From Flavobacterium sp. N502540 (GTDB lineage: Bacteria > Bacteroidota > Bacteroidia > Flavobacteriales > Flavobacteriaceae), in contig NZ_CP110012.1 of the NCBI RefSeq assembly GCF_025947365.1, positions 4,464,001 through 4,528,000 on the forward strand: DNA of 64,000 nucleotides. Direction: 5' to 3'. Of this stretch, positions 47,153-56,618 are shown piece after piece; position 1 is the first letter of the stretch, and every line of letters begins with the position of its first letter. The translations under genes and the position numbers were made by a program. The notes beneath the pieces were generated by a model that was not told the DNA's origin, did not search any database, and was given only the letters and a program-made list of their open reading frames with translations.

Positions 47153-47226
47153 GGCCTCGTGGCGCAACTGAATAGCGCATCTGATTACGGCTCAGAAGGT
47201 TACTGGTTTGAATCCAGTCGAGGTCA
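47153..47226 (+). tRNA. tRNA-Arg (anticodon ACG), copy 1
   Basis: 74 bases. Acceptor stem GGCCTCG pairs with CGAGGTC (one G-U), D arm GCGC/GCGC, anticodon stem TCTGA/TCAGA around loop TTACGGC with anticodon ACG, and T arm ACTGG/CCAGT around TTTGAAT. CCA is not encoded. A34 would be edited to inosine, decoding CGU/C/A. Confidence 0.95.
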
Positions 47227-47231
47227 CTAAT

Positions 47232-47374: not shown

Positions 47375-47448
47375 GGCCTCGTGGCGCAACTGAATAGCGC
47401 ATCTGATTACGGCTCAGAAGGTTACTGGTTTGAATCCAGTCGAGGTCA
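47375..47448 (+). tRNA. tRNA-Arg (anticodon ACG), copy 2
   Basis: Identical to copy 1 over all 74 bases. The duplicated unit includes the upstream leader (CCCGCAATAAGCAATCA and following), with a few differences, showing a recent tandem duplication. Confidence 0.95.
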
Positions 47449-47456
47449 CAAACTTA

Positions 47457-49620: not shown

Positions 49621-49687
49621 GGTTTGTAAATTGTTCAGTAAGGGTCACAAAAAAATCCCATTTCTTAAGAAGTGGGATTTTTTTTTA
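49621..49687. terminator. Terminator shared by the serine hydrolase and HTTM operon, inside a degenerate tRNA-end copy
   Basis: AAATCCCATTTCTT pairs with AAGAAGTGGGATTT (one G-U), with A-runs and T-runs on either side. The preceding bases GGTTTG...CAGTAAGGGTCAC mirror the tRNA 3' end, so the whole stretch resembles the tRNA-Arg copy 2 terminus. Confidence 0.7.
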
Positions 49688-49745: not shown

Positions 49746-50702
49746 TTATGATGCTTTACTTAGGAACCACCGTTGGTTGCCAGATCTGCTTTTAGACCGA
49801 ATATCATTTAAAACATCACTGCCAAAAGCAAAAGTATTAAGAAATATCATTACAAAAGCAAAGAACCACATTCCCATGATAACTCCTATGTTTATATGTA
49901 ATAGTATAATAAAGATATACCATATTGTTCTGGTCTTCGGATACCAGATAAATACAGAATAACCTATCTCAATTATCAGAACAAATATTCCAAGCGTAAC
50001 AGGAATGAATGGGTAATTAGAGATCCAGGAAAAATCGTATGTCTTAAAAATCGGCATCATCAAAGTTCTCCAAATCGCTTCTCCGTTTAACCATTGTTTT
50101 CCCAAACTTTTCTCAATACCCGTCGAGAGATATACGATGCACATTTGTATCTGAATCATTCTAATTGAAATACCAGACCATACTGATGTTTTTTTAAATT
50201 TACTAATTCCAATACTTGAATCGATTGAATAAGTAGCGTTTAAAGGAAAAAACATACCATAAAACAATGCTAACTGCGTAAAAACATCAACACCATAAAT
50301 AAAACCATTACCGGTATTTATAAAGGCTAAATGTAAAAAGAAACAAATAACAGTACTTATTCTTGTAAACAAGCCAATCATCAGAAAACAACAGGCGCAG
50401 AAAAAAAGTTCTAACAGTAATGTTGTTGCCTGATCATGAGAAATACTAAAGCATTTGCTTAATGCAAAAACAATATTACCTATATGTGGCAAAAAATTAT
50501 AATTACTTAATTTTGATATACTCCACTGTATAAGTCCGTACTGCCCGTAAAACTCATTAAAATTTGATTTTAGAACAACGAATTTACCTATACAGATCAT
50601 ACTTAACCCAACTCTGAAAAAAAATAAAGGATAAGTCGGTTTTTCAACTTCAATAAAGTTAAAAAACTTACTAGTTAATTTATAAAAAATACTAATTGGC
50701 AT
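49746..50702 (-). CDS. HTTM-domain membrane protein (vitamin K-dependent carboxylase-like)
   Basis: 318 residues with about eight membrane helices. The start PTYPLFFFRVGLSMICIGKF, then NEFYGQYGLIQWSI, match the opening of the HTTM domain, and the segment IYGVDVFTQLALFYGMFFPL with IRMIQIQMCIVYLSTGIEKS resembles its middle. HTTM is the membrane domain shared by vitamin K-dependent gamma-carboxylases and many bacterial proteins of unknown substrate. The start overlaps the preceding gene by 11 bases, so the two products are probably made together. Confidence 0.7.
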   Translation of the reverse strand: MPISIFYKLTSKFFNFIEVEKPTYPLFFFRVGLSMICIGKFVVLKSNFNEFYGQYGLIQWSISKLSNYNFLPHIGNIVFALSKCFSISHDQATTLLLELFFCACCFLMIGLFTRISTVICFFLHLAFINTGNGFIYGVDVFTQLALFYGMFFPLNATYSIDSSIGISKFKKTSVWSGISIRMIQIQMCIVYLSTGIEKSLGKQWLNGEAIWRTLMMPIFKTYDFSWISNYPFIPVTLGIFVLIIEIGYSVFIWYPKTRTIWYIFIILLHINIGVIMGMWFFAFVMIFLNTFAFGSDVLNDIRSKSRSGNQRWFLSKAS

Positions 50703-51177
50703 ATATCGTGGTTTGATAATAAAGGGTTTTACTAATTTGTTTGCCTAATCTAAAATCTTTCATCGTAGGTATATTGTTTTTATATACACTAACCTTAACG
50801 CTTGTAATCAAACTGTCTTTATTCATACAATAAATTGCCCAGGATCTGGCATATAAGTCCATTTGTGAGTTACTATTTCCTTCGGCAAAATGCCATAGCA
50901 TAGTTGAAAGTCTTATTTTATTTTCAGAATTTGATTCGTTAAATAAAATCTTTCGCCCTATTTTTTGATTGTTTTTAAACGCTATTAAGTCTATAGAGAA
51001 GTCATCATTTACTGTCGGGGCAAAGAACCCGAAGTTTCTATTGGTATATGTAAATGATGAATAAATTTCGAATAAAGATTTTACCGGATTCCAATTAACT
51101 AATTCGTACAAATGTGATACAGTCAATATTACTATAAGAAAATGTACAACGATAAAAGTTCTGTAGGTTTTTTTCAT
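50692..51177 (-). CDS. Membrane-anchored partner of the HTTM protein
   Basis: 161 residues. One N-terminal membrane segment (FIVVHFLIVILTVSHLYEL), then an extracytoplasmic domain with FEIYSSFTYTNRNFGFFAP, NENKIRLSTMLWHF-like sequence and a C-terminal strand region. No family recognised. It lies between the repeat protein gene (36-base gap) and the HTTM gene (11-base overlap). The Tyr/Phe-rich stretch resembles partner proteins often encoded beside HTTM genes, but this is inference. Confidence 0.65.
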   Translation of the reverse strand: MKKTYRTFIVVHFLIVILTVSHLYELVNWNPVKSLFEIYSSFTYTNRNFGFFAPTVNDDFSIDLIAFKNNQKIGRKILFNESNSENKIRLSTMLWHFAEGNSNSQMDLYARSWAIYCMNKDSLITSVKVSVYKNNIPTMKDFRLGKQISKTLYYQTTIYAN

Positions 51178-51213
51178 AGAATTAAAACGGACTATTTTAA
51201 TTTTAATAAAAAT

Positions 51214-51666
51214 TTATTGGTATTTATTTAAAATATGATAAAGCTTATCAAGCTGGCTTAGCTGCTCGTTGTTAAACTTACCTGTTTTGAAGATATTGAT
51301 ATTGGTATTAGTAGCTGCTGCATTAGACTTGAAAATATTAATATTGGTATTTGTTGCAGCCGCCGCCGATTTAAAAATATTAATATTTGTGTTTGTTGCA
51401 GCTTTAGTTCCAACCGATTCCGGTCTAACAGTTTTACCCTGTTTAACATCAGCTAAACCTACTGCTTTACCGGATCTTAAAGTACCTTTTTCTGTTTTCA
51501 CATCAATATTGTACGAATTAGAATCAAAAGATTTTAGAATGGTCTGAATTTCTGCTTTGTCCTTTTCGGCAATTGGTTTGTTAATTTTTAAATTTACCTG
51601 GCCATAGGTTACTACCGAGAATAGAATTGCTACTATTAGCAGTGTTGTGGTTCTTAAATTTTTCAT
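51214..51666 (-). CDS. Secreted protein with three 14-residue Asn-rich repeats
   Basis: 150 residues. Signal peptide MKNLRTTTLLIVAILFSVVTYGQ, then about 60 residues without clear motifs, then three tandem repeats at residues 89-130: AATNTNINIFKSxA, the third ending KTGK. The 42-base DNA units differ at many third codon positions while the core ATNTNINIFK is unchanged, which implies selection on the peptide. A helical tail (NNEQLSQLDKLYHILNKY) follows. Alternating Asn/Thr/Ile suggests beta strands. It could be a modified peptide, an adhesin or an amyloid-like protein. First gene of the HTTM operon. Confidence 0.75.
   Translation of the reverse strand: MKNLRTTTLLIVAILFSVVTYGQVNLKINKPIAEKDKAEIQTILKSFDSNSYNIDVKTEKGTLRSGKAVGLADVKQGKTVRPESVGTKAATNTNINIFKSAAAATNTNINIFKSNAAATNTNINIFKTGKFNNEQLSQLDKLYHILNKYQ
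51277..51402 (-). repeat. Three in-frame 42-base tandem repeats
   Basis: They encode the AATNTNINIFK repeats of the secreted protein. Differences among copies are mostly synonymous (AAT/AAC, ACA/ACC/ACT, ATT/ATC, TTT/TTC, AAA/AAG). Confidence 0.9.
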
Positions 51667-52415: not shown

Positions 52416-55400
52416 ATGCTATTAACCGATAACCATTTAACCATTGTAGTGGGGATAGACATCCATTTTACTACCCTACCCCCTTTTAATCCTTTTCATC
52501 CTTATATAGGTATTGTCATCGATCCATTTGATTATATTCCGTTTTTAGGTGCCACTGTGCATGTAAATGGATTTAAACGTGGAAACTCAGACACCAGCGG
52601 TATCATAATACCTCTGATGCACATTCCTCTTTTTACACCGCCCTGGCTGCTAACTCCTATTATCGGCCATGAAAGCATGAACTTTTTTGCTTCTAAAACT
52701 GTATTCTCAGATGGTACCCGAATGAGTCCCAAAGGACACATGTTAATGACCTGTAATGATATTGGGATTCCACTCTCGATGTCTTTAGGGAAAACCAAAG
52801 TAGGAAAAAAAATGCTCCCGTTTGCCCCAACCCTTTTTGCTCCTACCTCATTTTCATTGCCTATCCCTACCGGAAAACCCGTAATGGTTGGTGGCCCCTA
52901 TCCTCCCGATTGGGGAGGAGTCCTTACAGGATTATTAGCTAGTATTGGTTTTAGTACCTTAATGAAAAAAGTTAGGGGACTTGTTAAAAAGATTAACCTT
53001 AAAGGATCGAAAACTCCTAAAGGGCTTAAAGATGGACTCCGAAAATGTGTTAATGACCCCGTAAATGTGGTCAATGGCGTGGTGATTTATGAAGGCAGTG
53101 ATTTTGATCTGGCAAGTCCGATTCCTCTAAATTGGAAACGCAGCTGGTATTCAGATTCTCCTTATGTGGGATGGCTCGGTCATGGAACACATAGTGTATA
53201 CGACAGAGCGGTAGAATTATACTCCGAGGACGATGCCTTAGGACTTCGCATGGACGACGGACGACTTGTTGCTTTTCCTATCCTGATGCCCGAGGAAGAA
53301 TTTTACCTCCGTGAAGAAAAAACAACTCTGAAAAGAACTCCCGACGGCTATCAGGCTTACGATCATCAAAGCAAGCTTTTTTACGATTTTACCCTTTTTG
53401 ACGGTAAAAAATACCAACTTACCCAAATTAGTAATGTTAGCGGACTTAACATCGTTTTCGAATTTACAGCCAATCGTCTGAAAAAAATCATCGATGTTGC
53501 AGGCAGAGAAATCAAAGTAAGCACTAAGGACGGATTCATTCAAAAGCTGGAACTTGTCGGACCGGAAGAGGACGAACTTTTAGTAGCCTACGAGTACGAT
53601 AAGCAAGGTAACATAAGTGCTATTATTGATGCACTTCAAAAGCCGACAGCCATTGAATATGAAAATCATTTAATGGTTAAAAAAACTGACCGTAACGGAC
53701 AAGCTTTTTACTGGGAATATGATACCCAAAACCGCTGTATCCACACCTGGGGTGATGGTGGCTGGCAGGAAGGCTGGATGGAATACCACCCCGAGGAAGG
53801 TTATAATCTGATAACAGACTCCAACCTAGCTGTAACCACTTATTATTACGAATCAAGCCAGTTGATTACACAAGTAAAAGACGCCATGGGCAACAGTACC
53901 TTTTACGATTATACCGAGTTTATGGAACTCTATCGCGAGATTGATCCCGAAGGACGCATCCTGGGCTTTAACTACGATGACAGAGGAAACAAAACCGGTA
54001 CCGTTTACCCGGATGGCACAGAAGAAATCATGATTTACGATGAGGAAAACCGCCCATCAATAGCCATAGATCCCGAAGGGAATAAGACCGTTTATCTGTA
54101 CAAAGAAGACAGAGAAGATCAGCTCAAAACGATTATTGCTCCCGATAAAACCACTACTCACTTTAGTTATCACGATAATGGACTATTGGCGACAGTGGCC
54201 AAAAACAACAACAAACTCGAATTGATTTATGACGATCAATTCAATCTGATAGAATGGCGTGAGAACAACCAAAAACTAAAATCATGGGAGTACGACCATC
54301 GCGGACGCGTACAGGCGATCTACACCCCAATGCAAATGGCCGATTATTTTAGCTACGATGCACTGGACCGCGTAAGACAAATTGTAGAGAAAGACAGCAA
54401 TGTCATACAGTTTACCTACAACAATTACGATGAAGTCATAGCGCTAAAAGACAATAAAAACAAGATTAAGTTTAGTTATACCCCACTGGGAAGCCTTGCC
54501 ACACGCGAGCAAAATGGTGTGAAAGTGCGTTTTGATTACGACAAGATGGAACAGTTGCAAGCCATCAAAAACGAAGACAACGAAGTCTACTATTTTAGCC
54601 GCAACAAAGCCGGGCAAATAATCAAAGAAACTGCCTTTGACGGTATGGTCAAAAAATACCAGCGCAATCTCGCAGGTGAAGTGACCAGAATAGATCATGG
54701 CAACGGCAGATTTACCGAATACGAGCAGGATGCACTGGGACGCATCACCAGAGCCGATTATCATGACGGTACCTGGGAAACCTACACTTACAACAAAAAC
54801 GGACTTTTAACAGAAGCCGTGAATCAAAATGTAAGCATCCTTCTGGAACGTGATGAAATGGGCCGTATCGTAAAAGAAACCCAAAAACAACAGCTCGACA
54901 AAGATGATAATGCCATTACAATTACCTCGACTTACAACAAACTGGGACAACGCACCCATATAAACACTAGTTTAGGAGCAGAGATCAGTACGCATTACGA
55001 CTCAAAAGGACAGTTGGAACGCATCGAGGCACAAAGCAACGAACTCAAAGAACAGCATCAGAAGTGGGAAACCACCCTGAAACGTGACGAGTTGGGAAGA
55101 GAAATAGAGCGATTTACTACAGGCGGACTCCACATAAAAACCAGTTACAACAACAGCGGAAAACAAAAAGAACAGGAAGTATTTGCCAATGGGAAACGCA
55201 CCGGATCACGCTTTTACAACTGGGATACCAACCAGCAATTGCGCAGTGCCGTAAATCAAATGACCTCTAATATCACCTACTTTGATTATGATGATTTTGG
55301 TAATCTGGCAAAGGCAGATTATAATGGTAAAGAACAGCTTTACAAAACCCCGGATGCAGTAGGGAATCTTTATAAAACTCCCGATCGCAGCGATCGTAAG

Positions 55401-56618
55401 TATGGTAAAGGAGGTAAACTGTTACAGGACGAAAAGTATCATTATAAATACGACGAACTGGGTAATCTGATACACAAAAGTACCAGAAACATTAATGAGG
55501 AACTAAAATTCGAAGAACCCACCAACTGGATCGATAAATTGGCAGGCAACAAAGGCGAAGAAACTAGATTACAGCAAGAACATGAACAGTGGCAGGAAGG
55601 TGATACCACCTATAGCTGGCTGGCGAATGGTATGCTCGAGAGCATTACCAACCCGGATGGAAAAACGGTACATTTTGAGTACGATGCCCTGGGCAGACGT
55701 ACCGCAAAAATTGCAAACCAAAAAATAAATCGCTATGTTTGGGATGGAAACGTTTTGATTCACGAATGGAAGTACGATTTAAAAGATCGTCCTAAATTAG
55801 TTGCTACCGAAGATGACTTGGTTTACGACAAGCCAGAACCAATTAGCAATTTAGTTACTTGGGTGTATGAAGGAGGTTCTTTTGTACCAAGTGCTAAGAT
55901 TGTTGGAGATGAAAAGTTCTCTATCATTAATGATTATATTGGACGTCCTATACAGGCTTATACTGAAAAAGGTAAGTTAGTCTGGGAAACGGATTATGAC
56001 ATTTACGGAGATCTCCGTAATCTAAAAGGTGATCGGAATTTTGTCCCTTTTAGGCAGTTGGGGCAGTATGAAGATATGGAGACCGGCCTTTATTATAATA
56101 GGTTTAGGTATTATAATCCTGACAGTGGACTTTATTTAAGTCAGGATCCGATCGGGCTTTTAGGAAGTAATCCGAATTTTTATGGGTATGTACATGATAA
56201 CAATGCACTTGTTGACGCATTTGGATTAGACGAGTATTTTTTCAGAACGATATCTAAGGAGCATGCTCAAATTTTAGAGAAAACAAAAAAACTACCTGCC
56301 ACAACAGAAACGTTTACATCTCCAACAGCAGCATTTTCAAGTAATTATGATGGCGTTACTTATAAATTTACGATGAAAGATGGTACCACTGATTCTTTGT
56401 CCAAAATAGGAGTTAGGGATCAATCAAAGTTAGTAAAAGCAACTTATCCAGATATGCCAGAGGTTAAATCAGGTTGGAATCAAGATTCAGCTTATTTTAA
56501 ACAAGAAAAGGTAGGTAAAAAAGCTCAAATTAATATTGGATTGGGACAAGGTAAAGGTCTGAATACATTTAACAGTAATATTGTATCCTTTGAAAAAATG
56601 GAATTTGAATGTCACTAA
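52416..56618 (+). CDS. PAAR-like/Rhs polymorphic toxin
   Basis: 1400 residues. Residues 1-180 form a Gly/Pro-rich PAAR-like head (FVGI-type start, GKPVMVGGPYPPDWGG). The DUF6531-like segment NDPVNVVNGVVIYEGSDFDL follows near 210-230. About 950 residues of YD repeats (YEYDKQGN, FDYDKMEQL, YDALGRRTAK) lead to the Rhs core RYYNPDSGLYLSQDPIGLLG near 1225, ending NALVDAFGLD. The variable tip (about 1272-1400; YFFRTISKEHAQILEKTKKL onward) is the toxin. Its FRT-I-S start and spaced FTSPTAAFSS are compatible with an ADP-ribosyltransferase fold. Likely delivered by a contact-dependent secretion system; none is in the window. Confidence 0.88.
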   Translation: MLLTDNHLTIVVGIDIHFTTLPPFNPFHPYIGIVIDPFDYIPFLGATVHVNGFKRGNSDTSGIIIPLMHIPLFTPPWLLTPIIGHESMNFFASKTVFSDGTRMSPKGHMLMTCNDIGIPLSMSLGKTKVGKKMLPFAPTLFAPTSFSLPIPTGKPVMVGGPYPPDWGGVLTGLLASIGFSTLMKKVRGLVKKINLKGSKTPKGLKDGLRKCVNDPVNVVNGVVIYEGSDFDLASPIPLNWKRSWYSDSPYVGWLGHGTHSVYDRAVELYSEDDALGLRMDDGRLVAFPILMPEEEFYLREEKTTLKRTPDGYQAYDHQSKLFYDFTLFDGKKYQLTQISNVSGLNIVFEFTANRLKKIIDVAGREIKVSTKDGFIQKLELVGPEEDELLVAYEYDKQGNISAIIDALQKPTAIEYENHLMVKKTDRNGQAFYWEYDTQNRCIHTWGDGGWQEGWMEYHPEEGYNLITDSNLAVTTYYYESSQLITQVKDAMGNSTFYDYTEFMELYREIDPEGRILGFNYDDRGNKTGTVYPDGTEEIMIYDEENRPSIAIDPEGNKTVYLYKEDREDQLKTIIAPDKTTTHFSYHDNGLLATVAKNNNKLELIYDDQFNLIEWRENNQKLKSWEYDHRGRVQAIYTPMQMADYFSYDALDRVRQIVEKDSNVIQFTYNNYDEVIALKDNKNKIKFSYTPLGSLATREQNGVKVRFDYDKMEQLQAIKNEDNEVYYFSRNKAGQIIKETAFDGMVKKYQRNLAGEVTRIDHGNGRFTEYEQDALGRITRADYHDGTWETYTYNKNGLLTEAVNQNVSILLERDEMGRIVKETQKQQLDKDDNAITITSTYNKLGQRTHINTSLGAEISTHYDSKGQLERIEAQSNELKEQHQKWETTLKRDELGREIERFTTGGLHIKTSYNNSGKQKEQEVFANGKRTGSRFYNWDTNQQLRSAVNQMTSNITYFDYDDFGNLAKADYNGKEQLYKTPDAVGNLYKTPDRSDRKYGKGGKLLQDEKYHYKYDELGNLIHKSTRNINEELKFEEPTNWIDKLAGNKGEETRLQQEHEQWQEGDTTYSWLANGMLESITNPDGKTVHFEYDALGRRTAKIANQKINRYVWDGNVLIHEWKYDLKDRPKLVATEDDLVYDKPEPISNLVTWVYEGGSFVPSAKIVGDEKFSIINDYIGRPIQAYTEKGKLVWETDYDIYGDLRNLKGDRNFVPFRQLGQYEDMETGLYYNRFRYYNPDSGLYLSQDPIGLLGSNPNFYGYVHDNNALVDAFGLDEYFFRTISKEHAQILEKTKKLPATTETFTSPTAAFSSNYDGVTYKFTMKDGTTDSLSKIGVRDQSKLVKATYPDMPEVKSGWNQDSAYFKQEKVGKKAQINIGLGQGKGLNTFNSNIVSFEKMEFECH

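Follow-up and report, generated by a model that had tools for sequence, protein, structure and literature searches.

A predicted SdpABC-like operon with a repeat-bearing exported protein, a membrane partner and an HTTM-type protein in Flavobacterium sp. N502540

Three genes on the reverse strand of contig NZ_CP110012.1 of Flavobacterium sp. N502540 were analyzed within a stretch of 64,000 nucleotides, here called the window (Table 1). They encode an exported repeat protein (gene 1), a membrane partner (gene 2) and an HTTM-type membrane protein (gene 3). The ORF coordinates confirmed the tight packing reported in a preliminary description of this DNA: genes 1 and 2 are separated by 36 nt, and genes 2 and 3 overlap by 11 nt. 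The sequence likewise confirmed the three ATNTNINIFK repeats with a period of 14 residues. The G+C content of the operon was 30.5%, compared with 34.6% for the window. The terminator-like stem 3' of gene 3 was almost symmetric and had T runs on each strand, and the scan detected two terminator-like sites in the region, where 1.2 were expected. No immunity gene, of the sdpI type or otherwise, was recognized beside the operon. The gene upstream of the operon is divergent (52416-56618, forward strand) and encodes a 1400-aa protein with YD/RHS-type repeats that, judged by eye, looks like an Rhs-type polymorphic toxin. Two tRNA-Arg (ACG) genes (47153-47227 and 47375-47449, forward strand) were located about 2.3 kb beyond the operon end, possibly a site where genes may be gained.

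Table 1. Coordinates of the operon features within the window
Feature	Position	Strand	Basis
Gene 1, exported repeat protein, 150 aa (putative precursor)	51214..51666	-	ORF
Signal peptide, about residues 1-23 of gene 1	51598..51666	-	sequence, hydropathy; end set by eye
Leader region, residues 24-88 of gene 1	51403..51597	-	hhalign A1 vs A4
Repeat 1 ATNTNINIFK, residues 90-99 of gene 1	51370..51399	-	sequence
Repeat 2 ATNTNINIFK, residues 104-113 of gene 1	51328..51357	-	sequence
Repeat 3 ATNTNINIFK, residues 118-127 of gene 1	51286..51315	-	sequence
Tail, residues 129-150 of gene 1, end ILNKYQ	51217..51282	-	alignments
Gene 2, partner, 161 aa	50692..51177	-	ORF
FGFFAP motif, residues 49-54 of gene 2	51016..51033	-	sequence comparison
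Gene 3, HTTM/SdpB/GGCX-type membrane protein, 318 aa	49746..50702	-	ORF
K198 of gene 3, counterpart of GGCX base K218	50109..50111	-	invariant in 23 sequences; mapping
W204 of gene 3, counterpart of GGCX W223 (quinone pocket)	50091..50093	-	conservation, mapping
H269 of gene 3, counterpart of GGCX H287	49896..49898	-	conservation, mapping
Terminator-like stem 3' of gene 3	49649..49684	. (listed on +)	scan, sequence

The N-terminus of the gene 1 protein was hydrophobic (maximum KD19 hydropathy 1.83), and the mature part, with a maximum of 0.38, contained no hydrophobic segment. The protein has no Cys, and no Glu occurs in residues 89-129. Family searches for a name returned chance-like matches only. 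The cores start at residues 90, 104 and 118, and pairwise comparison of their ten codons revealed four, seven and five synonymous differences and no non-synonymous one, in agreement with the previous claim that the repeats are kept at the peptide level despite synonymous drift. The cores encode the same peptide with differing synonymous codons, which indicates that selection maintains the repeats and that they did not arise by a recent duplication. The leader of gene 1 was also found in substrates without the repeats. Alignment A1, comprising 23 of the 26 repeat proteins (P0016, P0019 and P0026 were omitted), matched A4 over 49 columns in hhalign with a score of 34.8, which none of 150 shuffles reached (shuffle maximum 19.5). 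Tails resembling that of gene 1 were seen by eye at loci L018 and L030-L032.

A shared-word search of about 5.8 billion proteins detected 26 proteins of the gene 1 family at E ≤ 0.001, its own product included. Together they displayed 81 TNTNINIF units. The scan demanded agreement with TNTNINIF at only four of eight positions, none of them prescribed, and all 81 units agreed at six or more, compared with 0.03 such units per residue-shuffled set; therefore, the units are not a product of chance. Asn at core positions 4 and 6 and Phe at position 8 were present in every unit, and Asn at position 2 in 80. Three copies were carried by 19 proteins, six by two, four by two, two by one and a single copy by two, one of which (P0026) has an end that looks cut off; in P0016 and P0019 the entire leader-repeats-tail module was present twice. 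Unit spacing inside a run was mostly 14 or 12 (range 11 to 16) and the residue after the core was Lys or Arg in 67 of the 81 units (60 Lys, 7 Arg), both tallies being based on a pattern that requires Asn and Phe at fixed places, with which an unbiased recount of the units agrees.

This repeat family is rare. It was identified solely in its own genome among 199 genomes of the genus, and likewise among 395 genomes of the phylum, so that Asn-rich repeats, which the preliminary description proposed to count upstream of HTTM genes, belong to one family and do not characterize these substrates in general. Among GTDB contigs one of 234 pattern matches was confirmed, in Pedobacter sp. MC2016-15 (L019), where the order of repeat gene, partner and HTTM gene recurred, in accordance with the conserved gene order suggested before. 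No member was found in viral contigs or plasmids. Contigs of equal length suggest that the repeat protein occurs together with a partner in six further cases, and with an HTTM protein in one more case besides its own locus and L019. Among the matches listed, the titles and abstract beginnings of the open-licence PMC literature described neither TNTNINIF repeats nor such an HTTM operon.

Gene 3 matched no Pfam model (E ≤ 1; repeat search at E ≤ 0.01), and its match to the NCBIfam SdpB model TIGR04033 (E 1.5e-6) scored 28.1 bits, below the curated cut-off of 178.4. The HTTM identity given in the preliminary description was upheld by this sub-cut-off match, by family profiles and by the predicted fold, and not by Pfam. 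Sequence comparison showed homology of the gene 3 family to both SdpB and GGCX, clearly so for the SdpB family, and the membrane fold was predicted to be of the GGCX type. A PDB profile search with A9 found GGCX, followed by cytochrome b6 chains (E 0.005-0.033) that were taken as chance matches; A3, a smaller HTTM profile, gave no PDB match. The residues Y211, K218, W223, G226, H287 and F299 of GGCX have counterparts in the HTTM profile, whereas N159-H160 and K217 were not kept and F286 and F294 were not kept as Phe; this numbering rests on a shared motif, the column count being 314 against 310 for the profile. N159 and H160 of the Glu pocket correspond to a Gly and to a position that varies. 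The quinone pocket with W223 and the role of N159-H160 are taken from PMC12589487. The alignment supports that gene 3 has retained several quinol-site residues of GGCX. Kinship with gamma-carboxylases is thus better founded than a reading of the sequence alone could show, and the earlier remark that classic gamma-carboxylation does not fit repeats devoid of Glu now agrees with a Glu pocket that is not kept.

The predicted structure of gene 2 (pLDDT 81.3, pTM 0.59) comprised an N-terminal helix (residues 3-21) followed by an alpha/beta domain. This fold has no clear counterpart, as Foldseek gave no match at E ≤ 0.001. No Pfam family was matched at E ≤ 1, PF19136 (DUF5819) and PF17418 included. 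Assignment as a curated SdpA was rejected, since neither TIGR04034 nor PF17418 matched, and the NCBIfam SdpA model matched none of the 25 members of the clade profile A2. The gene 2 relatives amounted to 25 proteins, one with 99% identity, in which the stretch TNRNFGFFAPTVNDD was strongly conserved. The FGFFAP motif compares with WAFFTK in SdpA and WKLFAP in a DUF5819 protein. Profile A2 was marginal, with the score against SdpA reached by one of 80 shuffles and that against DUF5819-like partners by one of 60. A7, a broader partner profile, matched SdpA at E 2e-4 (0 of 80 shuffles) over 39 columns around the motif and DUF5819-like partners at E 6e-4 (0 of 60 shuffles) over just 24 columns around it; SdpA and DUF5819-like partners matched each other at E 1.9e-5 (0 of 60 shuffles). 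These comparisons hint weakly at homology of gene 2 to SdpA and DUF5819. A role of gene 2 as chaperone or reductase, as first proposed, received no support in the analysis.

A total of 33 loci were compared, 17 from one search (own locus included), 15 of the 30 from another, in which places already covered by the first and long GGCX-like proteins were omitted, and L019. After removal of the own locus (L012), L019 and seven loci without a short HTTM ORF by the rule, 24 were counted; L013, a triad by eye, fell outside because its HTTM ORF has 356 aa. Among these 24 loci, which were picked by high score and are therefore biased towards SdpB-like genes, and which are not independent (near relatives: L005/L006, L010/L011 and L030-L032), a partner with the motif was located beside the short HTTM gene in 22, and 17 also had an exported-looking small protein before the partner. 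The substrates of L010 and L011 were cut by the locus end and scored as misses, and the upstream ORF of L014 is an HTTM gene, hence 17 and not 18. The preliminary description had tied its reading to how often HTTM genes have such neighbors, and according to these counts they usually do.

The partners of other short HTTM genes share FFAP, FFTK or LFAP, for example WSFFAP at L008 and the related WHLFAT at L035. The L002 partner is a curated SdpA (PF17418, E 2.6e-13), and that of L036 is a DUF5819 protein (E 1.1e-21). The substrates were diverse. Those of L030-L032 are tandem proteins with the gene 1 leader and ends KYQ or RF, in which a different core replaces TNTNINIF. Other substrates, judged by eye, were hydrophobic (L008, L034 and L036), contained Cys (L010, L011, L013 and L018) or were Thr-rich (L037).

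SdpABC-type operons in the same order as in the window (exported precursor, SdpA-type, SdpB-type) were observed at L002, L003, L005-L007 and L046, two of them in the genus itself (G049 and G338). Beside DUF5819-like/HTTM pairs, three loci encode small exported proteins whose hydrophobic stretches are rich in Gly, Ala and Val (L036:3150-3772, L034:403-792 and L008:301-609; two in tandem at L036); these look like undescribed bacteriocins. Another such pair adjoins an exported protein of 77 aa that contains a long run of Thr (L037:3075-3308). Two partner/HTTM gene pairs were arranged in tandem at L014:107-2708, with no substrate recognized there. The substrates at L010:19-558 and L013:2991-3581 displayed an apparent internal duplication of the leader-core-tail module with Cys in the core, and end in IIQQYR or VLMNYK.

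With moderate confidence, we interpret the locus as an SdpABC-like operon for maturation of a secreted peptide with a repeated core. SdpA and SdpB are both required for active SDP. The gene 1 product would be exported by Sec, and its anatomy of leader, several TNTNINIF cores with short linkers and tail is consistent with a precursor. Genes 2 and 3 would form an inner-membrane pair like SdpA and SdpB, which may hold the precursor at the periplasmic face via the leader and/or the tail. Each core would then be matured by a menaquinol-dependent step in the GGCX-type site. In this way a single precursor would give rise to multiple identical short peptides, modified or released, that most likely would serve as an antagonist or as an intercellular signal. 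Several observations speak against this reading: gene 3 lies far below the SdpB cut-off, the gene 2 clade profile is marginal against SdpA, gene 1 has no C-terminal hydrophobic domain, GGCX F286 and F294 are not Phe, no immunity gene was recognized, and most contexts came from high-score loci. The interpretation in the preliminary description was thus partly supported.

The repeats might instead be structural: TNTNINIF strands would stack into a surface fibre of amyloid-like or beta-solenoid type, and the products of genes 2 and 3 would assist only in secretion or display. Although the alternating Asn pattern and the identical repeats suit stacked strands, a solenoid would not usually vary in spacing from 11 to 16 or fall to one or two copies. 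The repeats are also missing from substrates encoded next to related HTTM genes, and a fibre has no need for a GGCX-type site with invariant residues; we regard this reading as unlikely. Even less probable, in our judgement, is that genes 2 and 3 enable cleavage or release without any chemistry, the HTTM residues serving quinone binding or structure. SDP is a cleaved peptide whose known modification is a disulfide, and Lys or Arg after most cores would suit cleavage; however, the family-model searches recognized no protease motif in genes 2 and 3, and the counterpart of K218 is invariant.

Two further readings give the site a defined reaction. The HTTM/partner pair could, like GGCX, couple menaquinol oxidation to proton abstraction, here from the peptide backbone and not from Glu, and so epimerize or otherwise modify the Asn residues that alternate through TNTNINIF. 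If true, this would turn the repeat into an alternating L/D strand, and SdpB, the HTTM proteins of DUF5819 pairs and those of linaridin clusters would form a single family of quinol-driven modifiers of peptides, with human GGCX as one specialized member. Type-A linaridins contain D-residues, but the likely epimerase is grmL rather than the HTTM gene, according to the review PMC10373908; this weakens the proposal, which we hold to be more doubtful than the two preceding ones. A true Glu gamma-carboxylase acting on a Gla-type precursor would be in accordance with the GGCX fold and the K218 counterpart. It is highly improbable, as residues 89-129 of gene 1 offer no Glu and N159-H160 fall on Gly and a variable position. 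With the base lysine kept and the Glu pocket not, the reaction is probably not Glu carboxylation, and the operon is not assigned as a carboxylase.

Both SdpB-type proteins and this operon keep, without variation, residues by which GGCX activates vitamin K hydroquinone, suggesting that SdpB-type proteins may be quinol-driven peptide-modifying enzymes. The matched open-licence PMC literature, in the parts available, made no statement on the chemical role of SdpA or SdpB, for which the SdpB-type family now offers a testable answer. The three identical, Cys-free cores are a good substrate for finding the reaction by mass spectrometry, and the leader shared by substrates with different cores points to an unexplored set of secreted peptides.

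Among known systems, GGCX, the vitamin K-dependent gamma-carboxylase (HTTM, PF05090, with lumenal PF22777), shares the fold of the membrane half and the residue counterparts named above. In contrast to GGCX, gene 3, with its 318 aa, appears to have no fused lumenal domain and a separate gene 2 is present instead; the unkept positions and the Glu-free repeats set the two further apart. The DUF5819 (PF19136)-HTTM pairs, as at L036, likewise have a partner with a WKLFAP motif beside an HTTM gene and a small exported protein, but gene 2 matches no Pfam model and its wider family is linked over the 24 columns only. Linaridin clusters also place an HTTM membrane protein (e.g., crdG, corynaridin) beside a ribosomal peptide precursor, and HTTM proteins in such clusters are mentioned in PMC9927463. 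They differ from the operon in gene content, as no linaridin precursor, hydrolase or SDR genes occur here. Identical repeated cores, variable linkers and conserved flanks are shared with RiPP-like multicore precursors.

The closest known system is SdpABC, a link absent from the preliminary description. Like SdpABC and YitPOM of B. subtilis, the operon combines an exported precursor, a single-TM partner and an HTTM protein, encoded side by side; the partner is SdpA-like by its motif only (FFAP/FFTK), and the HTTM families are homologous. A variable core on a common frame is shared as well: PMC6818787 describes YitPOM as a toxin operon and reports that the SdpC homologues of Bacillus have a shared frame with differing C-terminal domains. 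Unlike in SdpABC, the precursor gene comes first here and its product is hydrophilic and repeated, with no C-terminal hydrophobic domain as in SdpC, and no sdpI-type gene was recognized. Because genes 2 and 3 fall short of the curated SdpA and SdpB models and gene 1 lacks the hydrophobic toxin domain, the operon is likened to SdpABC/HTTM systems and is not counted as a member. Taken together, the operon most likely works like SdpABC, and the comparison suggests an undescribed kind of peptide-maturing system.
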